Virus record (IMG/VR): IMGVR_UViG_3300017710_002137
Span: 17,209-81,208 of that record
DNA length: 64,000 nt
Reading direction: 5' to 3' (one strand)
From: a virus
Position 1 is the first letter of the stretch, and each line of letters begins with the position of its first letter. This document shows positions 49,101 to 63,985 of the stretch, in pieces. The notes beneath the pieces are model-generated. The model did no database searches, was not told the DNA's origin, and saw nothing but the letters and a program-made list of their open reading frames with translations. The position numbers were made by a program, and so were the translations under genes.

Positions 49101-52100
49101 ATGAATGAACTTTCCAAATTTCTCGTAGAGAGTATAATGGAGGATGCGAATCCTATTAAAAAAACAGTAGTTATCTATGTGGGTAGGTTTCAACCTATGC
49201 ACAAAGGACACTATGGTACTTACCAACACCTTGTCAAAAAGTTCGGTAAGGATAATGTTTATGTTGGTACATCTGATAAGGTTGAAAAACCTAAATCACC
49301 TTTTAACTTCAAAGAGAAGGTGAAAATTATGACTACTATGTTTGGAATACCAAAATCCAAAATACATAAAGTCAGAAATCCATACAAACCCACAGAAATT
49401 CTTAAAAAGTTTGATGAGAAAACAACTGCATTCGTAACTGTTGTTGGTGAGAAAGATAAAAGTAGATTAAAGCCAGATAGTGGTAAATACTTTCAATCAT
49501 ACAAAGGAGAACCATCTGTGGGATATAGGGATGGTGGTTATGTTTATGTTGCACCTCAAAGTGGTGGTGGAATAAGTGGTACAGAAACTCGTAATGGTTT
49601 ATCGGTTGGTTCTGATGAACAGAAAAAGGATTTCTTTAAGAAACGAGCGTATGGAAAGTTCAACGCAACTATCTTTAAGATGATTACTGATAAACTCGAT
49701 GAGGGAATTGAAATTTCTAAAGAGATGATTGAGGAGTGGTTAATCAATGAGAGTTCTAAGATGGGAAGTGGTCAAGCAGATGATGGGCCAAACTTCTTTT
49801 TTCCCAATTACGATGTATTTTCCAAGATAAATGTAGATAGAGCAACACGAATTGGTTATGAGGTAGTTAATATGATTTCTAACAAAGAGTTAGAAGATAT
49901 TTACGACCATCCAATTTATCCCAATGGGCCTGTTGGAGCGGTAACACCTTTTCCTGCTGGTATCTTGGGTACAACAACTGCAAATAACCAAGTAGATATC
50001 TATTCAACTGATGCTTATTCTAAGTGGTTTAAGCATGTAACTCGTAGTGCATCAATGGTTGGTTATGAGTTAGTAAAAGGATTGGGAATCAATAAGGATG
50101 TAAAAGATGCATCGTTAGATTCTCAAAAAGGTGATAAGAAAGCACAACAAGAGTATGAAGCATCTTTAAATGAAAATATAGTACTACCAATTAAAGTTGG
50201 GGATACTATTATGACTGGTAGATTTAAAAACAAGAAAACAATTGTTAAATCAATCGGTAAAGATGAACATGGGATGCCTACTATTAATGGTAGAAAAGTA
50301 GTTAACTTCAGAATGGTTAAGGAAGGGTTTATATCAGAACTTGCAGGAACAGCTGTAAAGTGTAAAAAGTGTAATCACTCTTGGGAAATTGAATCTGAAG
50401 ATACCGAAAAGTACTTATGTCATTCATGTGGATGGGATTCTCAGAAACAAGAGTATGATTTTGATGCATTTGATTCTTGGAAAGAGAAAATGGGTTTGAA
50501 TGAAGAACTCGATGAACGAGGGAAAATGAGACCTTCTGATAAATTGAGAAGAAAAGCGGCAATGGCTGGTAAGAGAGCTCAAATAGCAAGAAGAAGAGCA
50601 AGAACGATGAAAAGAAGAAAACCTCTTGCTAAACTTAAGAAGATTGCTTACAAAATGGCATACAGACAAGTTTATGATGAGTTTGCAAAAGATTTATTTC
50701 CTGATATCAAAAAATCTGATTTAAGTATAAAACAATCACAAGTAGTTCACAAAAACGTAGTTAGAAAAAAAGGTAGAATAATGAAAAGAGCTAAGTTTAG
50801 ATTTCTACCAGCTCTTAGACAAAAAGAATTTGATAAGTTTCAAGGTAAAAACGAAAACATGATTGGGTATGCAGGACCTGAAGATATGAAACGTTTTGAT
50901 AAACAAAATAAGGAATATAGAAAAACAGCAGATTCCGATAAAGAGTATCAATACGAACCAATCAAAGAAGTAAATGAATTCTTTTACATGGATTTTAAAA
51001 AGTATGTTTATAAAAACAGAAAACAAATCAACCAAAAGATAAAAGGATTATCAGATAAAGAAAAAAAGAAGTTTTTAGAGTTACTTTGGAAAAAACAAAT
51101 TGGTAAAGGATTTGGTAAAGATGTAGATGGTAGTGAATTACACCAAATGTTAAAAAAAGACAAAGTAGTTAAAGAAGGATTAAAAGAATTAGGAATAAAA
51201 GATTTTAAATCGTTATTTAAGAAAATGCCTTCTGATTTACAAAAGAGAGTTTACAATCTAAAGAACTTTGGACAGAGAGTAGATAAACATCCTGAAGGAA
51301 ATGTTCTTAAACACACAATCACAGTTGTAAATCGTTCAATCAAAGAAGATGATATTGATATTGCAATTGCAGCAATGTTCCATGATATAGGAAAAGATGA
51401 AACTGCTGGTATCCATCCAAAGAAAGGACATATTACTCACTTCGGTCATGAGAAAGTATCTGCGAACTTGGTAAACAAATACAAAAAATGGATTCAATCA
51501 GTTGGTGGAGATGTGGATTCGGTTCATTATATCGTAAAAAATCATATGAGATACAAACAACTATCTGATATGAGACCAAAGAAACAGGCAGATTTAAAAT
51601 CACATCCTTTATTTAGTAAACTAAGTAAATTTTCTAAACACGATAGAGGTGGATTGGATGAATCTACTTTAAAATTAAGAGTTCCATCAGATATTCTAAA
51701 AATTCAAAAAGGATTTAAAAAGAATGGTAAGAAACTTTATGTAGTTGGTGGAGCTGTAAGGGATGCTATACTTGGAAAATCACCAAAGGACTTTGATTTG
51801 GCAACAGATGCAAAACCAGATGAGGTTTTAAAGATTGCCAAGGATTTAGGAATGAAAACTGTTGAGGTTGGTAAATCATTCGGAGTTGTAATGGTTGGTG
51901 GACATGAAATAGCAACATTTAGAAAAGATATTGGTAAAGGTAGGAGACCTTCATCTGTTGATTATACAGATATCGAGGGTGATGTACGAAGAAGAGATTT
52001 AACTATTAATGCTTTATTCTATGATATCGATAGAAAAGAGATAGTTGATTTAGTTGGTGGTATAAAAGATTTACAAAAGAAGAAAATCAGAACAGTTGGT

Positions 52101-54041
52101 AAGGCAGAAGAAAGATTTGATGAGGACCCGTTAAGAAAACTAAGAGCTTTAAGATTCCAAGCAAGGTTGGGTGGTAACTTAGATAAAGAATTACTTGATG
52201 CTTTACAAAAAGACCCATCACTTAAAGGAGTATCATTTGAAAGAGTTAGAGATGAGGTTATAAAATCAATCAAATCAGCTAAAGATACTAAAAAGTATAT
52301 GGAGTTGAATGATAAGATTGGATTCACTTCACTAATATTCCCAAATCTTAAAATATCTAAACCTTACATCAAGGATAATGATTATATCTTGTTCCTTGCA
52401 TCACTATTCAAAAAGAATTCACCTTCGGTATTAGGAAAACAATTAAACAAATTAACTTATTCTAATGACGAAAAAAATAATATTGTATTTTTAGTATCAT
52501 TACAACACTTTAGACCAGAAGAAATTGTAGTATTCAAGAAACTACAAGAAAAAACATCTTTATCAGATGACCAAATCCTTAAATTTGGTAAGTTGATTGG
52601 GAAGGATATGAAAAAGTTCGTAAACTTTAACTTATCTATTGGTGGAAAGGATGTTCCATCTGATATCAAAGGACCTGAAATAGGATTGTGGATTAAAAAT
52701 AAAGAAAAGGAAAAATTTATGAATGAAATAGAACAACTAATAAGTGATATTGATGATAAGTTGGTTGAAATGTTTTTACCAAACACTAAAACACCACAAC
52801 AACTAATAAAAGAAAACATAAACGAATCTAAATTACTCCAAGAAGGTGGTGCGTATGGACATATGTCTCACCCATTTGATACTGATATCAATTTAACCTT
52901 TGGACAACTTAAAGATATCGTAAATAGAGCACTTGAAGGTACACTTGAGTACACCAGAGAGAAAACCGATGGTCAAGCTCTTGCTATTTCATGGAGAGAT
53001 GGGAGATTAGTAGCAGCAAGAAACAAAGGACACTTAAAAAACAAAGGTGAGAACGCTTTAGATATCAAAGGTGTATCAGATAAGTTCCAAGGTAGAGGAG
53101 GTTTATCAGATGCATACAATTATGCTATGAAAGACCTTTCAAATGCAATAAAATCCCTTTCAGATAAACAAAGAGATAAGGTATTCAAACAAGGAGCGTG
53201 TTTTATGAACCTTGAAGTGATATATCCAACATCAGTTAATGTGATTCCTTATGGCCAAGCGTTACTTGTATTTCATGGAACTATGGAATATAACGATGAG
53301 GGTGTTGCTATAGGTGAAAATGGTGAAGCAGCAAGAATATTAGCTGGTATGATTAAACAAGTGAACAAAGATGTACAAGATAACTACACTATTCAAGGCC
53401 CACCTGTTGTAAAATTACCAAAATCACAAGATTTATCTAAAAAACGTAGTAAATATTCATCACAGATATCTAAATTACAGAAAGAATTTAGTTTAAAGGA
53501 TACTGATGGTGTTGCAAACTATCACCAAGCATGGTGGGAACAATGGGTTGATAAAAATTCACCATCAACACTCGATAACAAAACCAAAATGGGGTTAGTT
53601 AAGAGATGGGCATTCATGGATAAGAAGTTTAGATTAGATAAAAAGAATATTACTGATGAAAAAACATTAGAGTGGGCTAAGAAAACAGATAAAGATGACC
53701 AAAAAAAGATTTCTAAACAGAATCTAATGAAGTTTGAACAGATTTTCTTAGGATTAGGTGCAGAAGTATTAGAATTTACTTCATCTGCTTTAACTGTTAA
53801 TCCTGATTCCGCAGTTCGTGATATGAAAAAACGAATTGATAAAACAATCAAAGATGTTAAGAAATCAGGTGACCCAAAGAAGATAGAAAAACTTAAATTA
53901 GAACTTGGTAGATTAAATTCTATTGGTGGTTCTAATAAAATTGTACCAAATGAAGGTATTGTATTCTTATATAATGGTAATACTTTCAAACTCACAGGAA
54001 CATTTGCATCAGTAAATCAAATACTCGGTATTTTCTTCTAA
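49101..54041 (+). CDS. RNA-repair-type multidomain polyprotein (NMNAT-like, HD, CCA, ligase)
   Basis: 1646 residues. 18-214: nucleotidyltransferase with HKGH (34-37) and ISGTETR (158-164), NMN-adenylyltransferase-like. 218-355: unknown. 359-413: small beta module. 421-443: zinc ribbon, two CxxC pairs. 473-625: very basic segment. 627-852: HD domain (His738, His761-Asp762). 880-1240: class II CCA-adding/poly(A)-polymerase-type domain (GGAVRD at 883, DFD 897-899, RRDLTINAL). 1249-1646: RNA-ligase-like domain with KTDG (Lys1288), Glu1372, EGIVF (1618) and KLT (1630). (L/I)-x-E tripeptides fall at most borders: 8-10, 215-217, 356-358, 411-413, 466-468, 852-854, 1240-1242, 1246-1248. Such sites fit T4 prohead-protease cleavage, so packaging and cutting into separate enzymes is inferred. 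Whether the enzymes act on tRNA is unproven. Confidence 0.85.
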   Translation: MNELSKFLVESIMEDANPIKKTVVIYVGRFQPMHKGHYGTYQHLVKKFGKDNVYVGTSDKVEKPKSPFNFKEKVKIMTTMFGIPKSKIHKVRNPYKPTEILKKFDEKTTAFVTVVGEKDKSRLKPDSGKYFQSYKGEPSVGYRDGGYVYVAPQSGGGISGTETRNGLSVGSDEQKKDFFKKRAYGKFNATIFKMITDKLDEGIEISKEMIEEWLINESSKMGSGQADDGPNFFFPNYDVFSKINVDRATRIGYEVVNMISNKELEDIYDHPIYPNGPVGAVTPFPAGILGTTTANNQVDIYSTDAYSKWFKHVTRSASMVGYELVKGLGINKDVKDASLDSQKGDKKAQQEYEASLNENIVLPIKVGDTIMTGRFKNKKTIVKSIGKDEHGMPTINGRKVVNFRMVKEGFISELAGTAVKCKKCNHSWEIESEDTEKYLCHSCGWDSQKQEYDFDAFDSWKEKMGLNEELDERGKMRPSDKLRRKAAMAGKRAQIARRRARTMKRRKPLAKLKKIAYKMAYRQVYDEFAKDLFPDIKKSDLSIKQSQVVHKNVVRKKGRIMKRAKFRFLPALRQKEFDKFQGKNENMIGYAGPEDMKRFDKQNKEYRKTADSDKEYQYEPIKEVNEFFYMDFKKYVYKNRKQINQKIKGLSDKEKKKFLELLWKKQIGKGFGKDVDGSELHQMLKKDKVVKEGLKELGIKDFKSLFKKMPSDLQKRVYNLKNFGQRVDKHPEGNVLKHTITVVNRSIKEDDIDIAIAAMFHDIGKDETAGIHPKKGHITHFGHEKVSANLVNKYKKWIQSVGGDVDSVHYIVKNHMRYKQLSDMRPKKQADLKSHPLFSKLSKFSKHDRGGLDESTLKLRVPSDILKIQKGFKKNGKKLYVVGGAVRDAILGKSPKDFDLATDAKPDEVLKIAKDLGMKTVEVGKSFGVVMVGGHEIATFRKDIGKGRRPSSVDYTDIEGDVRRRDLTINALFYDIDRKEIVDLVGGIKDLQKKKIRTVGKAEERFDEDPLRKLRALRFQARLGGNLDKELLDALQKDPSLKGVSFERVRDEVIKSIKSAKDTKKYMELNDKIGFTSLIFPNLKISKPYIKDNDYILFLASLFKKNSPSVLGKQLNKLTYSNDEKNNIVFLVSLQHFRPEEIVVFKKLQEKTSLSDDQILKFGKLIGKDMKKFVNFNLSIGGKDVPSDIKGPEIGLWIKNKEKEKFMNEIEQLISDIDDKLVEMFLPNTKTPQQLIKENINESKLLQEGGAYGHMSHPFDTDINLTFGQLKDIVNRALEGTLEYTREKTDGQALAISWRDGRLVAARNKGHLKNKGENALDIKGVSDKFQGRGGLSDAYNYAMKDLSNAIKSLSDKQRDKVFKQGACFMNLEVIYPTSVNVIPYGQALLVFHGTMEYNDEGVAIGENGEAARILAGMIKQVNKDVQDNYTIQGPPVVKLPKSQDLSKKRSKYSSQISKLQKEFSLKDTDGVANYHQAWWEQWVDKNSPSTLDNKTKMGLVKRWAFMDKKFRLDKKNITDEKTLEWAKKTDKDDQKKISKQNLMKFEQIFLGLGAEVLEFTSSALTVNPDSAVRDMKKRIDKTIKDVKKSGDPKKIEKLKLELGRLNSIGGSNKIVPNEGIVFLYNGNTFKLTGTFASVNQILGIFF

Positions 54042-57057: not shown

Positions 57058-57444
57058 ATGATTTCAATGAAAAAATTAATTAGTGAAAACGAAAACGAAT
57101 CTTATTGTAATGAGTATTTCGTAGAAAATTACAATGATATTAAAGAATTCTGTGAATTCATGGAATCGTATAAATCTGATATTAACGAAGCAGAATACCA
57201 AGGAAGAAAAGTAAAACTTGGTAAACCAATGCAAGGTGATGTTAAAAAATTCAAAGTATATGTTAAAAATCCTCAAGGTAATGTAGTAAAAGTAAACTTT
57301 GGTCACAAAGGTAAGGGAAATGAAAAGACGATGAAAATTCGTAAGAACAATCCAGATGCAAGAAAAGCATTTAGAGCAAGACACAATTGTGATTCACCAG
57401 GTCCAAGACATAAAGCTAGATACTGGTCATGTAGAAAGTGGTAA
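57058..57444 (+). CDS. Small head/core protein with KARYWSCR end
   Basis: 128 residues. The N-terminus MISMKKLISENENE has Ile-Ser-Glu at 8-10, as in a capsid-targeting peptide. DINEAEYQ has Ile-Asn-Glu at 42-44, a likely prohead-protease site that would leave an 84-residue basic product. The C-terminal NPDARKAFRARHNCDSPGP and KARYWSCRKW is a conserved pattern I have seen in many T4-like marine phages. AAGGAG nine bases upstream sets the start. A capsid or core protein located between terminase and portal. Confidence 0.72.
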   Translation: MISMKKLISENENESYCNEYFVENYNDIKEFCEFMESYKSDINEAEYQGRKVKLGKPMQGDVKKFKVYVKNPQGNVVKVNFGHKGKGNEKTMKIRKNNPDARKAFRARHNCDSPGPRHKARYWSCRKW

Positions 57445-57483
57445 AATAAAATTAAAAGGTTATAAAATTAAATTAGGAACAAG

Positions 57484-59211
57484 ATGGCAGATACTTCATT
57501 TTTTGGTAGATTAACGAAACTCTTCAGAGCTCAAGCAGTTGTTACTGTCGATAAAGATGGTAAGAGAAAAGTTGTTGATACCGATGAAAGACAACAAACA
57601 AATTTATCTTCTCTAAGAGATAGATATACGAAACTACAAAAAAGTTTCTTTGAACAAGCAGGTGGTGCTCAATCAATGGCATACCAACAAGTTCGTAGAG
57701 AAGTTTTTAGAGATTACGATGCGATGGATAACGACCCAATATTAGCATCAGCTCTCGATATATACGCAGATGAATCAACACTAAAGAACGAATTTGGTGA
57801 TACTCTTATGATTCACTCAGATAATCAAAAAGTACAAGATTTATTAAACAACTTATTCTATGATATTCTTAATGTTGAATTCAACTTATGGCCATGGGTA
57901 AGAAATATGTGTAAGTATGGGGATTTCTTCTTAGGTTTAGAAATTGCTGAAGGTAAAGGTATTGTTAACGTAACACCTCATTCAGTTTACAACACAGAAA
58001 GATTAGAAAGAACAGACCCTTCAAATCCAAATTCAGTAAAATTTAAAATTACTGAGGACCCGAATGGAAAAGAACAATATGAAAACTTTGAAGTTGCTCA
58101 TTTTAGATTATTAGCAGATACTAACTGGTTACCATATGGTAAATCTATGATTGAGAATGGTAGAAGATTGTGGAAACAATTATCTTTAATGGAAGATGCT
58201 ATGTTAATCCATAGAATTATGAGAGCACCTGAAAAAAGAGTTTTCAAAATTGATATCGGTAATATCCCACCAACAGAAGTAGATAACTATATGCAAAGAA
58301 TTATGAACAAAATGAAGAAAGTTCCTTTTGTTGATAGAAATACTGGTGATTACAACTTAAAGTACAATATGCAAAACCTAACAGAAGATTTCTATCTTCC
58401 TGTTCGTGGTGGTGATAGTGGAACATCTATTGATAATCTTGCAGGATTAGAGTATGCAACCATCGATGATATTGATTACCTAAAAAATAAATTATTCGCA
58501 GCATTAAAGATTCCAAGAGCTTATTTAGGATATGAGGAAAATGTAAATGGTAAAGCAACTCTTGCCGCTGAAGATGTAAGATTTGCAAGAACAATAGAAA
58601 GAATCCAAAGAACAGTAATTTCAGAATTATCTAAGATTGCAATTGTTCACTTATACTCACAAGGAATTACTGATTCAGAAATGACTAACTTTGAATTAGG
58701 ATTAGTAAATCCATCTACAATTTACGAACAAGAAAAAGTAAACTTGTGGAGTGAAAAAATTAGATTGGCTCAAGATATTCAAGGTCTTAATATGTTATCC
58801 AAAGATTGGGTATATGAAAACATCTTTAAACTAAGTGGTGGTGAACAAGATGAACAGAGAGTTAGGATGTTGGATGACTTAAAAGATAGATTTAGATTCC
58901 GTTCTATTGAAGATGAAGGTTCAGACCCTGCACAAGAAGATGAAGAACCAGATGATATAGAAGAACAAATTGAAAATATCAAAAAAGAAATTAAAGATAA
59001 AGGTGGTAGACCAAGAGAGGGTGGAACTTATAAAAAAGATAAACATCCACTTGGTAGAGACCCACTCGGTGATGATGAAAGAACGAAAAAACGTTCAAGA
59101 ACTTCTGAAGATAAGGCAATTAAATATATTAATGGTATAGCGGCTAAAAGGAAGTATTTACACGAAATGAAAGGTATGTTAGATGAAAATAATATACTTG
59201 ACCAAGAATAA
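57484..59211 (+). CDS. Portal protein (T4 gp20-like)
   Basis: 575 residues. YDAMDNDPILASALDIYADEST, LWPWVRNMCKYGDFFLGLE, VTPHSVYNTERLERTDP, RIMRAPEKRVFKIDIGNIPP and YLPVRGGDSGTSIDNLAGL are hallmarks of gp20-type portals. The C-terminus is acidic then basic and probably flexible. The dodecameric portal is the vertex through which DNA enters and leaves and from which the T4 head assembles. Located after terminase, as in T4. Confidence 0.92.
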   Translation: MADTSFFGRLTKLFRAQAVVTVDKDGKRKVVDTDERQQTNLSSLRDRYTKLQKSFFEQAGGAQSMAYQQVRREVFRDYDAMDNDPILASALDIYADESTLKNEFGDTLMIHSDNQKVQDLLNNLFYDILNVEFNLWPWVRNMCKYGDFFLGLEIAEGKGIVNVTPHSVYNTERLERTDPSNPNSVKFKITEDPNGKEQYENFEVAHFRLLADTNWLPYGKSMIENGRRLWKQLSLMEDAMLIHRIMRAPEKRVFKIDIGNIPPTEVDNYMQRIMNKMKKVPFVDRNTGDYNLKYNMQNLTEDFYLPVRGGDSGTSIDNLAGLEYATIDDIDYLKNKLFAALKIPRAYLGYEENVNGKATLAAEDVRFARTIERIQRTVISELSKIAIVHLYSQGITDSEMTNFELGLVNPSTIYEQEKVNLWSEKIRLAQDIQGLNMLSKDWVYENIFKLSGGEQDEQRVRMLDDLKDRFRFRSIEDEGSDPAQEDEEPDDIEEQIENIKKEIKDKGGRPREGGTYKKDKHPLGRDPLGDDERTKKRSRTSEDKAIKYINGIAAKRKYLHEMKGMLDENNILDQE

Positions 59212-59235
59212 TTTAGTTTAACTTTTATAATTTTA

Positions 59236-59243
59236 TATTTATA
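59236..59243 (+). promoter_or_regulatory. Putative late-type element TATTTATA
   Basis: TATTTATA 40 bases before the next gene; the intergenic region 59212-59283 has no terminator-like stem. Confidence 0.38.
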
Positions 59244-59283
59244 TTAGGGAATTTTTACTATATCATAATAGGAAACAAATAAG

Positions 59284-60156
59284 ATGAGAAAAATAAAACA
59301 TTCAAAATTTAAGAATACTGGATTCCTTTTTGAGCTTTTAACTCGACAAATTACCGTTGAAATACTTAATGGTAGCGAGGAAAAGTCAAAAGGAATCATC
59401 AAAGAATTCTATGGAAGAGGAACTGAGCTATCAAAAGAACTCAGATTATTCAACCTACTTATAAACGAAAAATACAATACAGATTCAAAGGCTGAAAAGT
59501 TTATTGATGCTATTTTAGAAGCACATACTAAAATAAATTATACAAAACTTCAACGAGAAAAGTACAATCTTGTTAAATCCATCAAGGAGAACTTCGAAAT
59601 TAATAATTTCTTATCTTCCCCGGTAACAAACTACAAAATTTTAGCTTCAATTCATAAACTTTTTGAAGGTAAAAAGAATGATATTCTTGATGTTAAGGAC
59701 GTATTCGATTCTAAAATCACTCTTGTAGAACACATCTCATCTAATTCCCAAAATTCAAAAGGTGTTACGCAAGATAAATTAGTAGAGGAATATAGAAAAC
59801 AAGAGAAGGACCTAAGGTTGTTGACATATAAAATACTTGTTGAAACTTTTAACAAAAAATATACTACTCTAAATGAATCACAGAAGGGTTTATTAAGAGA
59901 ATATATTAATAACGTAACTAATACATCAAAGTTTAACGAGTATTATGATTCTCAATTAGTCGAAACTATTACTACTTTACATGGTATGTACAAGAGTATG
60001 AAGGATAAGATTACAAAAATCAAGTTGAGAGAAACAATTAATGTTCTTAAAAAACAAAAAATTGGTAAAAAGATTACCGATGAACAAGTTTCAGCTTTGA
60101 TGATGTCTTATGAATTGATTAAGGAGATAAAAAATGTCAATGAACGAAAATCTTAA
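59284..60156 (+). CDS. Conserved head-block protein, unknown
   Basis: 290 residues, highly helical and basic. KHSKFKNTGFLFELLTRQITVEILNG at the start and the KITDEQVSALMMSYELIKE end have the look of a conserved phage core protein, but no known domain is recognised. It contains the tripeptide LNESQ near residue 196. It lies between portal and the core genes, where T4 has gp67 and gp68, and may be a prohead scaffold/core component. It overlaps the next gene by 23 bases. Confidence 0.55.
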   Translation: MRKIKHSKFKNTGFLFELLTRQITVEILNGSEEKSKGIIKEFYGRGTELSKELRLFNLLINEKYNTDSKAEKFIDAILEAHTKINYTKLQREKYNLVKSIKENFEINNFLSSPVTNYKILASIHKLFEGKKNDILDVKDVFDSKITLVEHISSNSQNSKGVTQDKLVEEYRKQEKDLRLLTYKILVETFNKKYTTLNESQKGLLREYINNVTNTSKFNEYYDSQLVETITTLHGMYKSMKDKITKIKLRETINVLKKQKIGKKITDEQVSALMMSYELIKEIKNVNERKS

Positions 60157-61426
60157 AGAGTATTTAGATGAATTAATTCAAGAAATTGAAAAAGAACTTG
60201 AAGAGGCTACTACAACAGGTAACGTAGCTGGTTACCAAACCCCTAAAGCATTTTCTGATAAAGGTAAATCTGATAAAAAAAGAAAGAAAAAAATCGCAAC
60301 TGCACTTGGTTATAGTGTAGTGGGTGATGATGTTGATAACATCTCTGAGGCAATCAAAGGTAGAAACAACAAAACAGGTGAATCCTTTGGAATGGTTATC
60401 GGTTCTGATAAACAAGGTAACAATGGATACGAACTTACCGTAAGAAAAACTTACAATTCAAGAATAAGTGCATATGGATTTATTTTTGATAAAGATTCCA
60501 ACCTAACTGATATTCGTGATTATGGATATTCACTCGATGGTAAGTTTCCTGATATGAAAGGTCATGCAAGTTCAACATCAGTAAGACCTAACAAAAGAGA
60601 AACTATTACTCAAATAGCTAAAATTACTTCCCCAGCATTTGCAAAAAAGATTTATCAGCACGTTCAAAAGAATAACAAAATGGATGAATCAGTAAACGAA
60701 GCTTCTAAATTAGCTATGGGTATTGCTGGATTCACTGGTACTCGTGGTGTTGCTGTTGATGATTTTATCAATACACATAACATCGATGCAAAAAAACTTT
60801 TTAACTTTGTAAAAAAAGGAAATTTAAAAGATAGAATGGCATTCGTATCAGCAATTGCTGGTAGACCTAATAACAAAATGTTTAAAATGATTACCAAACA
60901 ATTTGGTGAATCAGTAAACGAAGCAATGAAACCATCACAAGTTCGTTCAGCAATCTCAAAGGTTAAAAAACAACTAATGAGAAAGTGGAAACAAAAAGGT
61001 GGATATGAAAACTTCGGTCAAAAAGAATTAGATAAAATGAAATCTAAGTTTGATTACAATCCTTATGGTTCACCAGATGAAAGACAAATTTCTAAGATGT
61101 TAGATGGGTTTGATAATTGGGCAATGAACTATGATGGTAATATGAGGGAAGATATATCTGAAGCCAAAGTAAAAAGACCCGTTAATCGTTGGTTAGAATT
61201 AAAAAACGATGAAACAATGCATCCTCATAAGAAGATGGCAATGGGTTTAAAAGAATTAAAGTATCAGTTAAGAGAAACTGAAAAGTTCTTTAATTGGTAT
61301 AATAAAATAAAAACTATGAATGAGTTAGATTCCAATCAGTATTGGAAAAGAACAAATAAACATATTTATAGTATAAAAGAGAAACTAATTAATATCGCTA
61401 AAACGATACAGGAGATTGAAAAATGA
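60134..61426 (+). CDS. Prohead core-type protein with repeated ESVNEA motif
   Basis: 430 residues with AAGGAG upstream of the ATG. The N-terminus is helical and acidic (LKEYLDELIQEIEKELEEA) with Leu-Glu-Glu before a Thr/Gly linker. MDESVNEASKL and GESVNEAMKP repeat the same hexapeptide ESVNEA about 80 residues apart, and DISEAKV adds Ile-Ser-Glu. The pieces between are basic domains. This looks like a multi-part internal protein that prohead protease would cut. Same motif class as in its neighbours. Confidence 0.62.
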   Translation: MSMNENLKEYLDELIQEIEKELEEATTTGNVAGYQTPKAFSDKGKSDKKRKKKIATALGYSVVGDDVDNISEAIKGRNNKTGESFGMVIGSDKQGNNGYELTVRKTYNSRISAYGFIFDKDSNLTDIRDYGYSLDGKFPDMKGHASSTSVRPNKRETITQIAKITSPAFAKKIYQHVQKNNKMDESVNEASKLAMGIAGFTGTRGVAVDDFINTHNIDAKKLFNFVKKGNLKDRMAFVSAIAGRPNNKMFKMITKQFGESVNEAMKPSQVRSAISKVKKQLMRKWKQKGGYENFGQKELDKMKSKFDYNPYGSPDERQISKMLDGFDNWAMNYDGNMREDISEAKVKRPVNRWLELKNDETMHPHKKMAMGLKELKYQLRETEKFFNWYNKIKTMNELDSNQYWKRTNKHIYSIKEKLINIAKTIQEIEK

Positions 61427-61896
61427 AAATAACAAGAGAACACTTAAAAAATATTGTAAGAGAAACCTTACAAGAAGAATCTGAATATCAAGAATTTTTC
61501 AAGAAGGCTTTAGAAAAGGCTGGTAAGTCAATTCCTGCAATGTCTGATGAAGAAAAAAAGAAATTCTTTAACAACATAGAAAAAACTTGGAGTGGTAGAG
61601 GAAAAAAGAATGAAAGATTTGGTAGAGGAGATGAAACTGAATTAGATGAGTTAACAAAGGCTCAAGAAAAATTACCACCAGCACTTAAAAAGGCAATAGA
61701 GAAAAAAGAAGGTAAAAAAGAATCAGTTGATGAATCAATCAACGAAGGACCTTCTACTGAAGAAAAAAGAATTGCAATGTTGGCTGTTAGAAAACAAGCT
61801 AAATACAGAAATGTAAGTTTGGAACAGGCAATACAAGACCAAATCAATGCTCTTGAAGAATTAAAGAGAGATGCAAAGAGAGGTAAATTAAAATAA
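61423..61896 (+). CDS. Small core/internal head protein
   Basis: 157 residues. MKITREHLKNIVRETLQEE at the N-terminus is an amphipathic helix ending in Leu-Gln-Glu; DESINEGPSTEEKR contains Ile-Asn-Glu before a short C-terminal helix. It is rich in Lys and Glu, as core and internal proteins often are. It overlaps the preceding gene by ATGA. Probably cut by prohead protease near both ends; inferred. Confidence 0.6.
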   Translation: MKITREHLKNIVRETLQEESEYQEFFKKALEKAGKSIPAMSDEEKKKFFNNIEKTWSGRGKKNERFGRGDETELDELTKAQEKLPPALKKAIEKKEGKKESVDESINEGPSTEEKRIAMLAVRKQAKYRNVSLEQAIQDQINALEELKRDAKRGKLK

Positions 61897-61897
61897 A

Positions 61898-62074
61898 ATG
61901 ACTAAGAGAGAGTTGTATGATATAATCAATGAGGAAATTGTTAACTTTAAAAAAGGAAAGATTAACGAAGAACTCAATGAATCTGATAAGGATTTAATAA
62001 GAAAAATCATCAGACAGGAAGTATCTGCAATCTTTTTCGATTTATTTAAACGAAGAAAAACTTGGGGAGCATAA
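61898..62074 (+). CDS. Very small core-type protein, 58 residues
   Basis: ATG at 61898, TAA at 62072-62074 overlapping the protease ATG as TAATG. MTKRELYDIINEEIVNF and KINEELNESDKD contain three (I/L)-Asn-Glu tripeptides in 28 residues, the highest density in the window; the C-terminus is a basic helix (FDLFKRRKTWGA). Position directly before the prohead protease matches T4 genes 67 and 68, small core proteins destroyed by gp21. No search was possible. Confidence 0.6.
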   Translation: MTKRELYDIINEEIVNFKKGKINEELNESDKDLIRKIIRQEVSAIFFDLFKRRKTWGA

Positions 62075-62667
62075 TGGGACAATTATTAATAGAAACAAAC
62101 CTATTCGAAGGTAAAGTAAATGAAGATGATAGTGGAAGAACTATTGTTAAGGGTATTTTACAAAGAGCAGGTGCTGAAAATCAAAATGGAAGGATATATC
62201 CTAAAGAAATTTTGATGAGAGAAGCTAAAAAATACGAAACACTTATTAAAGAAAGAAGAGCACTTGGTGAATTAGACCATCCAGATTCTTCTGTAATCAA
62301 TCTAAAGAACGTATCTCATAACGTAAGAGAGATACATTGGGATAATGATGATTTAGTAGGAACAGTTGAGATTCTACCAACTCCAAGTGGTAATATCTTA
62401 AAAGAACTACTTAAAGCAGGTATCCTTTTAGGTATATCATCAAGAGGTATGGGTTCAGTAGAACCTCTATCAGGTGGTAAAGTACAAGTAGGTGAAGATT
62501 TTGAATTGATTGGTTGGGATTTTGTTTCTAATCCATCAACTCATGGAGCATTTATGACTCCAATGAACGAATCTGTTAATAAAGAACTTATTAAACAAGG
62601 TGAAGTTTGTAACGAGTGGTGTAAATCACAAGATTTGATGAGAGAAATTATAACAGAAATAGGTTAA
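62074..62667 (+). CDS. Prohead core protease (T4 gp21-like, peptidase S80/U9)
   Basis: 197 residues from the ATG at 62074 with GGGGAG upstream; a TTG at 62062 lies inside the previous gene. NGRIYPKEIL, LGELDHPD (catalytic His region), HNVREIHWDNDDLVGTVEIL, GISSRGMGSV (catalytic Ser region) and WDFVSNPSTHGAFM are diagnostic. In T4, gp21 cleaves core and capsid-targeted proteins after (L/I)-x-E and then itself. Its own start MGQLLIETNLFEG has Leu-Ile-Glu and Leu-Phe-Glu, suitable for self-processing. Confidence 0.92.
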   Translation: MGQLLIETNLFEGKVNEDDSGRTIVKGILQRAGAENQNGRIYPKEILMREAKKYETLIKERRALGELDHPDSSVINLKNVSHNVREIHWDNDDLVGTVEILPTPSGNILKELLKAGILLGISSRGMGSVEPLSGGKVQVGEDFELIGWDFVSNPSTHGAFMTPMNESVNKELIKQGEVCNEWCKSQDLMREIITEIG

Positions 62668-62671
62668 GACC

Positions 62672-62860
62672 ATGGGATTTAATGTACAGGACTTTATGTC
62701 CAAAAATAAATTTAAGTTAGGTAAAGTTACCAGAGAAGTAGGAGAAACTCCATTCAAAGGTGGGCATAACGATATAAGAAAAACAAACTATGAAGTTAAG
62801 TTAACTGAAGATGGTAAACTTGATTTATATACACATAAAACGGAGACAAAAGAATTATGA
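62672..62860 (+). CDS. Small protein, unknown
   Basis: 62 residues: MGFNVQDFMSKNKF, then a compact charged region (KVTREVGETPFKGGHNDIRK) and a C-terminal beta-like stretch (NYEVKLTEDGKLDLYTHK). Too short for domain recognition. It starts five bases after the protease stop and overlaps the next gene by ATGA, so it is part of the head operon. Possibly a minor core protein. Confidence 0.5.
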   Translation: MGFNVQDFMSKNKFKLGKVTREVGETPFKGGHNDIRKTNYEVKLTEDGKLDLYTHKTETKEL

Positions 62861-63735
62861 TTAAATTGACTGAACTTTTAAAAGAAGAAGAAACCTTCAC
62901 AGCAATCAATAAAGATAGTGGTGAAGTTTCTGTATTTAAATCCAAAGATGCAAGAGATTCAGCTGTAAAGGCAGGTACTCACACTAAAGCTAAAGATTCG
63001 GAAAATGGTGATGATAAAAAAGATACTCCTAAAGTGAACATCTTTGATAAACCTAAAAAGGATGAACCTAAGAAAGATGAACCTGTAAGGGATGACCAAA
63101 CCGATGCACAGATAGAAGATGTTCAAAATAATATTGATGATATGCCCGGTGATGAAATACAAGATTATGCAGAATCAGATATATTCCCATATCTTAAAGG
63201 AAAAGATTTGGAACTTGCAAAAATGTATGTAGATGATATTGATGCGGCAGGGGATGATTTTGATAGAAGTGCTGATTTAAGAAAAGATTTAAAAGATTTA
63301 TTTGATAAGAAAATGAGTTTAGAGAACACCTCTACAAGATTAAAAGATTTATTACCAGAAGGATTAATCAACGAAGGAACTCGTTCTCAAGTTGGTATCA
63401 TTGATAGAAGTGGTAAGATTGCATCAGCGTATGTTCACTACGATGGATATCCATCTAATATGAAACCAGGTCTTAAAAAACACATGAAGAACGAAAAAGA
63501 TGTTCTTACTTTAATTAAAAAGGGTGGAGCAAGTGGAATCTTTGATGATAAAGAAATTGAATATTATAATGAAAAATCACAACCATTAAAAGGAACTGAA
63601 AAAGATATACAAGGATATATTAAAAATGCTGGAAACAAAGGTGGTGCAGAATTTGTATATTTATATAATATGAAAGATAGAAAATGGTATTTCGCCGATG
63701 TTTATAAAGATAAAGATTTAAAAAAATTATTTTAA
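62857..63735 (+). CDS. Capsid-targeted internal protein, two-part
   Basis: 292 residues. MIKLTELLKEEETF is a short amphipathic start with Leu-Lys-Glu. A long acidic/Lys-rich middle (residues 45-165; PKKDEPKKDEP) is likely disordered. Then LLPEGLINEGTRSQVGII gives Leu-Pro-Glu and Ile-Asn-Glu, followed by a conserved C-terminal domain (GKIASAYVHYDGYP, LIKKGGASGIFDD, EFVYLYNMKDRKWYFAD). By analogy with T4 internal proteins, protease cutting would release the C-terminal domain inside the head. The domain function is unknown. Confidence 0.62.
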   Translation: MIKLTELLKEEETFTAINKDSGEVSVFKSKDARDSAVKAGTHTKAKDSENGDDKKDTPKVNIFDKPKKDEPKKDEPVRDDQTDAQIEDVQNNIDDMPGDEIQDYAESDIFPYLKGKDLELAKMYVDDIDAAGDDFDRSADLRKDLKDLFDKKMSLENTSTRLKDLLPEGLINEGTRSQVGIIDRSGKIASAYVHYDGYPSNMKPGLKKHMKNEKDVLTLIKKGGASGIFDDKEIEYYNEKSQPLKGTEKDIQGYIKNAGNKGGAEFVYLYNMKDRKWYFADVYKDKDLKKLF

Positions 63736-63745
63736 GGAGAGTACA

Positions 63746-63985
63746 ATGATTAAATTAACAGATATATTGAACGAAGGAAGAATGGGTAAAGACGAAATCA
63801 ATCAAGAATTGATTAATGTTAAAAATCCAAAAGAACTTGATATGCTTTTTAGAAATATGGAAAATGCAGGTGAAGAAAAACTTTTCGCTAGATTATATCA
63901 TAACTCAACAAATCCGAAATTACAAAAGGCATTTTTTGATGCTATAAAAAAAGAATTAAAAAGATATCCAGAAGGACTTGTATAA
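63746..63985 (+). CDS. Small capsid-targeted-type protein
   Basis: 79 residues. MIKLTDILNEGRMG starts almost like its upstream neighbour (MIKLTELLKEE) and has Leu-Asn-Glu at 8-10. The rest is a helical domain (ELDMLFRNMENAGEEKLFARL). AAGGAG lies ten bases upstream. Another AAAGGAG follows the stop at 63991, probably for the next gene outside the window. Confidence 0.6.
   Translation: MIKLTDILNEGRMGKDEINQELINVKNPKELDMLFRNMENAGEEKLFARLYHNSTNPKLQKAFFDAIKKELKRYPEGLV

Follow-up and report, generated by a model that had tools for sequence, protein, structure and literature searches.

Tag-like N-termini and module exchange at prohead-protease-like sites in the head genes of an uncultured T4-like phage

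The head genes of an uncultured T4-like phage raise a question about the role of a short N-terminal sequence that recurs, nearly unchanged, on otherwise unrelated proteins. The phage is represented here by a window of 64,000 nucleotides, bases 17209-81208 of an 81,208-bp IMG/VR virus record (IMGVR_UViG_3300017710_002137), and the genes in question lie at positions 57058-63985 (the head block) and, upstream of the terminase gene, at 49101-54041; the features described in these two regions are on the plus strand, and genes are named by their first base. An earlier note on this DNA had described in the head block seven neighbouring proteins with capsid-targeting-like starts and (L/I)-x-E sites, and the strings that it quoted were all recovered, both at the N-termini (MISMKKLISE at 57058, MKITREHLKNIVRETLQE at 61423, MIKLTELLKEE at 62857, and MIKLTDILNEG at 63746) and internally (DINEA in 57058, ESVNEA twice in 60134, and INEG in 61423 and 62857). 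We consider it likely that these genes encode modular polyprotein cargo bearing an equivalent of the T4 capsid-targeting sequence (CTS), which would enter the prohead, be cut by the prohead protease gp21 and have its modules injected, and that the cleavage sites double as seams.

The CTS and the internal proteins (IPs) IPI-IPIII of T4 were reportedly described by Mullaney and Black in 1996. Both have been reviewed (PMC9026906, PMC3012670), and it has been proposed that the CTS lets T4-like phages package a variety of proteins (PMC9026906). The sequences of T4 IPII, IPIII, gp23, gp24, and gp21 were taken from the T4 record for comparison, and relatives of the window phage were collected via gp21 and via the C-terminus of the giant 1646-amino acid protein encoded at 49101-54041, which gave about 160 related contigs (designated by L numbers). 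The closest isolates by gp21 identity were Microcystis phage Mel-JY01 (63.5%) and Flavobacterium phage immuto (53.9%). The gp22 and gp23 (major capsid protein, MCP) sequences were taken from relatives, the window record ending upstream of both.

A candidate targeting tag and its cleavage site

The tag was searched for as the T4-derived pattern hxxhhxE (a hydrophobic residue, two residues, two hydrophobics, one residue, and Glu) within the first 15 residues. It was found in 6/10 head-block genes and in 2/69 other genes (Fisher p = 2e-5), one of the latter two being the 1646-amino acid gene; shuffled N-termini, a control that the earlier note had proposed, gave a mean of 0.34 matches, and other residues at P1 gave 0-1 head-block matches. 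Because the pattern was set only after viewing the window N-termini and the T4 register, the test in relatives, also proposed in that note, carries more weight. Among unique N-termini of the relatives, the exact T4 register (hydrophobic residues at positions 4, 7, and 8 and Glu at position 10) was present in 66/449 head-zone and 14/73 giant-protein sequences and in 0/289 others. This is the register of MKTYQEFIAE, the start of T4 IPII and IPIII to which the window tags had been likened, and T4 gp24 starts with MAKINELLRE. In the window it occurs in 49101, 57058, 62857, and 63746, and in a shifted form in 60134, 61423, and 61898. Residues 4 and 7 of the T4 CTS matter for targeting, and residues 8 and 10 for processing (PMC9026906).

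The shorter tagged genes of the block encode the MISMKKLISE protein (57058-57444; phrog_7595), with a second site DINE|A at 57181-57189, the MKITREHLKNIVRETLQE protein (61423-61896), a 58-amino acid protein with the tag MTKRELYDIINE and the sites INE|E, INE|E, and LNE|S (61898-62074), and a 79-amino acid protein starting MIKLTDILNE|G (63746-63985). Three genes inside the block lack the tag, namely 59284, 62672, and the portal gene gp20 (57484-59211; PF07230, E 8e-71), a negative control within the block. The 62-amino acid protein encoded at 62672-62860 has a tag-like start without Glu, MGFNVQDFMSK, in which Lys (VQDFMSK) and, in relatives, Asn (e.g. IQDYLAN) take the position of the cleavage Glu. 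T4 IPIII with Asp at position 10 is targeted and not processed, and the 62672-62860 protein could likewise be targeted but not processed. The 5'-nucleotidase of phage immuto (L084:185-784) begins with the tag-like sequence MKKVMGNLADLLLEES, and another packaged enzyme is therefore suggested.

Inside the proteins, the motif [ILV][NST]E[AGS] occurred 4.4 times per 1000 amino acids in the head block versus 0.5 elsewhere, and its D, K, and scrambled versions were not enriched there. The bare [ILV]-x-E tripeptide is weak evidence, as the portal and 59284 proteins contain it too. A site of the form [LI]-[LVI]-x-E|[AS] lies near residue 60 of the MCP in 53 sequences (relatives and two isolates), with a variable P2 and with Glu at P1 without exception; the variants in relatives include LLDE|A, LVSE|A, LVKE|A, LIDE|A, LISE|A, and others, and T4 gp23 has FLTE|A at residue 65. 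The gp22 relatives carry KINE|S and VIAE|S. The prohead serine protease gp21 (S77) is itself encoded in the block (62074-62667; PF03420, E 1e-26 at 62062-62664), the best start being 62074 and not 62062, and its N-terminal QLLIET is common to the window phage and T4 gp21, whose LIE-9 has been discussed as an autocleavage site (PMC9026906).

Taken together, these sequence comparisons support well the suggestion of a portable targeting/cleavage tag, because the same modules follow either a tag or an internal site with a Glu boundary, as described below, and the MCP shares the site. Tags of one kind sit on unrelated protein bodies and on solo copies of modules.

Exchange of modules at the sites

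Across the related contigs, whole modules of 30-475 amino acids were gained, lost, or reordered. The giant protein has 30 homologues of 1030-2104 amino acids, and 82% of their 183 distinct junction contexts, which are not independent events, lay within 3 amino acids of a hydrophobic-x-Glu site versus 11% for a null of random positions. Versions of the site with D, K, G, S, or N in place of Glu gave 0.16-0.64-fold values, and a non-hydrophobic P3 gave 1.6-fold. The breakpoints of the giant protein fall between, not within, recognised domains. Both ends of 200 unique inserts were at sites in 59% of cases versus 1.4% expected, and in the 60134 family 60% of the breakpoints were at the strict site versus 22% for the null. 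No indels of at least 30 amino acids were found in the terminase, portal, 59284, gp21, 54157, 54740, and 62672 families (990 pairs each). According to these alignments, modules are bounded by the internal (I/L/V)-x-E sites.

The 60134-61426 polyprotein consists of an N-block, the site ISE|A that opens its module array (60341-60349), module 1, the joint ESVNE|A (60686-60700), module 2, a second ESVNE|A (60908-60922), module 3, the site ISE|A that closes the array (61154-61162), and a conserved C-block. The window sequence ...DNISE|[three modules]|ISEAKVKRPVNRW corresponds to ...NNINE|AKVKRPVNRW in L043, where the same N- and C-blocks are joined by one INE|A and the three modules are gone; isolate phages searched with the 60134 protein gave no match. 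In the 62857-63735 protein, the tag MIKLTELLKE is followed by a 160-amino acid middle, INE|G (63367-63375), and a C-terminal domain (63376-63735; phrog_1987, 9e-16), and MIKLTELLKEE[160 aa]GLINE|GTRSQ in the window equals MIKLTELLKEDVINE|GTRSQ in L004, from which the middle is missing (MIKLTELLKEDVINEGTRSQ). The C-terminal domain, the piece that the proposed cleavage would free, is predicted to be a compact fold starting directly after INE|G (pLDDT 81.6, pTM 0.79), and Foldseek returned no confident PDB match for it, only uncharacterised viral proteins. Within 62857-63376 a second type of seam was observed, K/E/P/D-rich linkers (PKKDEPKKDEP), at which the middle of this family varies without Glu sites.

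Sixteen modules were found both solo, following an N-terminal tag, and as parts of a polyprotein, a few of the solo copies being truncated or starting at an internal Met. The clearest pairs begin directly after Glu in both settings, as in LNE|GPSTEEKR versus INE|GPSTEEKR, in solo MIKLKNILNEEPLNE|GPSTEEKRIAML (L080) versus embedded ESVDESINE|GPSTEEKRIAML (window 61423, where this C-terminal module follows INE|G at 61738-61746), and in solo MKLTDLVPLKE|GKFKKQER (L041) versus embedded SSNINE|GKFKNLER (L036). A one-seam swap series was made up of KMD-ESVNE- followed by ASKLAMG, GRAKNDL, or AMKPSQV, and the AMKPSQ module was found behind four different upstream modules. When the polyproteins were segmented at the sites, 66 module clusters of three or more members were obtained. 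For most modules no relatives are known; an hmmscan of 20 polyproteins gave few known domains, and PADLOC run on nine cargo proteins gave no hits. DUF3008 (PF11450) was the first cargo module in L077:11700-14396 and L221:9172-11316, and relatives of this module occur in cyanophage proteins, two of whose records annotate it as a virion protein.

The most informative member falls outside the range 57058-63985 to which the earlier note had assigned the family, although tags are indeed present there. It is the 1646-amino acid polyprotein encoded at 49101-54041 (PF01743 3e-30, PF01966 1e-6, PF01467 1e-5, phrog_2244 1e-60), in which the tag MNELSKFLVE (49101-49130), in the exact T4 CTS register, is followed by a cytidylyltransferase-like domain (residues 25-116), a Zn-ribbon-like part, a basic segment, an HD domain (residues 745-822), a CCA tRNA nucleotidyltransferase (residues 879-997), and a C-terminal KTDG ligase-like domain. 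Its sites are INE|S after the cytidylyltransferase module (49743-49751); ISE|L (50331-50339), where modules of 176-357 amino acids are inserted in L099, L102, L118, and L126; LNE|E before the basic segment (50496-50504), where modules are inserted in L098, L113, L127, and L134; LDE|S (51654-51662), the left edge of the tRNA nucleotidyltransferase module of about 390 amino acids; and INE|S plus LQE|GG (52818-52844), the right edge of that module and the start of the KTDG domain. The whole module, from LDE|S to INE|S, is missing in L105 and L158 and stands before, not after, the HD domain in L152, and Mel-JY01 has a minimal two-domain form joined at IIAE|GG, the equivalent of LQE|GG.

The motif residues KxDG, E, EGIVF, and KLTG of the KTDG domain are invariant in A1/A2, and its sequence is suggestive of a place in the ligase/nucleotidyltransferase superfamily; no PDB match was found, the AlphaFold model was poor (pLDDT 49.5), and no relatives of the KTDG domain of Mel-JY01 were found by scanning. 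A stand-alone KTDG domain behind a T4-like tag, MKFLKSYEEFLNE, was observed in a huge phage (L163:8989-10254; LR756500), in which the neighbouring genes start with MEFVKTYLEFINE and MEYVKLFEEFVND, and a giant-protein homologue (L164:5632-8379; LR756508) has, by eye, an N-terminal segment resembling a ParB nuclease (DGHHRWKAGENL) ahead of the cytidylyltransferase-like domain. No peptidase family was found in the 1646-amino acid window protein; a HELVH metallopeptidase-like stretch was noticed by eye in one homologue, that of L043 (L043:28-2943). About 25 kb of the window (23476-48912), flanked by the tail genes and the giant protein, carry sugar/nucleotide and polysaccharide-type metabolic genes, some of them transketolase-like or epimerase-like (mostly judged by eye), and no tRNA genes were found in the window.

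The ESVNE joint as DNA

ESVNE, the commonest joint, was spelled GAATCAGTAAACGAA in 69/89 contexts, and both joints of 60134 have this spelling; these copies, identical and 222 bp apart, enclose the 74-amino acid module 2, which together with its joint (60701-60922) is precisely missing from L030. Within a set of 31 joints with mutually unrelated flanks, 21 were identical over 15 bases, and similarity was at background level on both sides. Codon bias as the source of this conservation was rejected by in-genome controls, the shares being 0.82 for AAC (0.37 for N-E in control genes), 0.85 versus 0.39 for TCA, and 0.97 versus 0.54 for GTA.

A 16-mer scan of IMG/VR gave at least 169 matches. Among the matches listed, 164/169 read in the ESVNE frame, the joints fell into 97 left and 97 right flank classes, 47 of the 50 spacings shorter than 3 kb were multiples of three, and 82/116 loci carried this kind of head genes, with gp21 identity down to 54%. 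L221 has an open frame of 715 amino acids in which six ESVNE joints connect seven beads. The ESVNE joint is conserved as DNA to a degree that codon usage does not explain, between modules that are otherwise unrelated, and so may double as a recombination joint, the short homology keeping swaps in frame. The proposition that these 15-16 bp are dual-coded, the protein reading being a prohead-protease site and the DNA a recombination seam, so that a whole lineage of T4-like phages maintains a set of injected proteins that can be exchanged and that separate by themselves, is an evenly balanced one. A larger structure than that of the earlier note emerges from the sequences, in which internal sites join shuffled cargo modules, the upstream 1646-amino acid polyprotein is included, and one joint is conserved as DNA.

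Proposed mechanism, alternatives, and significance

The tags, the sites, the site-registered module swapping, the conserved joint DNA, and the MCP site, all of them observed, suggest a mechanism in which the head block and the upstream 1646-amino acid gene would encode module-built head cargo and core proteins. The CTS-equivalent tag would recruit each polypeptide into the prohead core, where the gp21-type protease would cut after Glu at [ILV]-x-E, taking the tag off and separating the internal modules; such cutting is expected from T4 biology and the matching MCP site. The small folded proteins so freed would remain in the head and be injected along with the DNA. The sites are also the seams where modules are gained, lost, and reordered between phages, and the ESVNE seam, fixed as DNA (GAATCAGTAAACGAA), would probably be a short homology joint that preserves the frame during swaps. 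As judged from their domains only, the likely roles of the cargo lie early in infection, in tRNA repair/CCA addition and in the metabolism of nucleotides or NAD.

The modules might instead be scaffold or core material like T4 gp22, gp67, and gp68, degraded by gp21 to peptides that exit the head, with no injection. The sites shared by gp22 relatives and the degradation of T4 core proteins by gp21 (PMC9958956) would agree with this, but several of the modules can be recognised as enzymes, the structure prediction for one released piece gives a compact domain beginning right after the site, and breakpoints spare the recognised domains, so that we regard it as improbable. Rather improbable, too, is that the sites are ordinary flexible linkers, recombination tolerating inter-domain breakpoints with no cleavage needed. 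Phage proteins often undergo domain shuffling (PMC10684548), and in the 62857 family K/E/P/D-rich linkers do serve as shuffling points; however, module edges are specific for a hydrophobic P3 and a Glu P1, as the residue controls in the giant family indicate, and the same site occurs in the MCP and behind N-terminal tags, the latter not being inter-domain linkers.

The joint could also be primarily a DNA element, the recombination or insertion site of a mobile system, with the protease-site reading incidental, as might be supposed from a 15-16-bp core conserved beyond codon usage between unrelated flanks and from the direct repeats that exactly flank one module in the window. We find this very unlikely: the junctions of the 1646-amino acid protein use LDE, INE, LNE, ISE, and LKE with varied DNA, nearly all of the listed 16-mer matches read in the ESVNE frame, and the MCP has the same protein motif without module insertion there. 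Chance occurrence of short (I/L/V)-x-E motifs in Glu-rich proteins, which the presence of the bare motif in the portal and 59284 proteins might recall, is hardly credible in view of the shuffles, the residue controls, the genome-wide comparison, the breakpoint alignment, and the DNA conservation.

Several observations weigh against the proposal of capsid-targeted modular cargo. The phage is uncultured and known from sequence alone, and its record stops before gp22 and gp23. The amphipathic helix that the earlier note saw at the N-termini was not significant in a hydrophobic-moment test (p = 0.14), and an ad hoc, poorly designed regular expression for it matched 0/10 head-block genes. The 61423 and 62857 families showed no breakpoint enrichment, with most internal breakpoints off the strict site and the latter family shuffling at its K/E/P/D-rich linkers instead; in the giant family, 29/252 junction instances were at other sequences, such as KFxxKNE, and the dependence among its junction counts could not be removed by single-linkage collapse, which was too coarse for counting independent events. 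Lastly, a synonymous AAT spelling of the joint is also widespread, without frame discrimination and multi-copy less often (7/112 versus 36/116 loci, among the matches listed).

With the T4 CTS and IPs the system shares a short tag with hydrophobic residues at 4, 7, and 8 and Glu at 10, an S77 protease encoded in the head block, and a conserved tag ahead of cargo that varies. Each T4 IP gene, however, has a single module whose product is cut one time, close to its N-terminus, whereas the present proteins contain as many as seven modules in a row, with internal sites, shuffling at the sites, and one joint conserved as DNA. The polyvalent proteins of Iyer et al. 2017 (PMC5512222) are likewise large, multidomain, probably virion-borne, and encoded near packaging genes, and their authors draw a polyprotein analogy; 49101 has several biochemically different domains and lies near packaging genes. 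Their release was proposed there to occur via embedded metallopeptidase or assemblin-like domains, the most frequent hub of the class, whereas the 1646-amino acid protein is without a peptidase family, and a term search of that article found no T4-type gp21 site, CTS tag, or tRNA nucleotidyltransferase. This class is thus the nearest concept for the 1646-amino acid protein, with a different release route. In SPN3US and phiKZ (PMC10052503, PMC5694885), many head and ejection proteins are also cut after Glu, and long propeptides are cut at several sites, but these are AxE sites (P3 Ala) in mostly removed propeptides with no modular cargo between them. In P1 DarB (PMC9024508), an N-terminal signal also brings a large cargo to the capsid, but this is another phage, the signal lies within the first 30 residues, and no internal joints are reported there. 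In the open-access papers that were searched, no account of cargo polyproteins being shuffled at prohead-protease sites came up, and a literature search for short linker sequences in phage mosaicism found nothing. The tag and the protease chemistry are already known from T4, and no earlier report was found of cleavage-site-registered shuffling.

The internal proteins of T-even phages have been described as diverse defence proteins behind a conserved targeting sequence. That idea appears here on a larger scale, as polyproteins built from more than 60 recurrent modules, the majority lacking Pfam or PHROG relatives, in uncultured phages that are widespread, and the particle would resemble a re-loadable cargo bay, because related phages swap pieces exactly at the cutting sites. 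If this is true, the joint could be used to find new injected proteins of the anti-host and anti-defence kinds and would supply the boundaries for expressing them, and it would give a concrete DNA basis to in-frame domain shuffling in phages, which is usually left vague.

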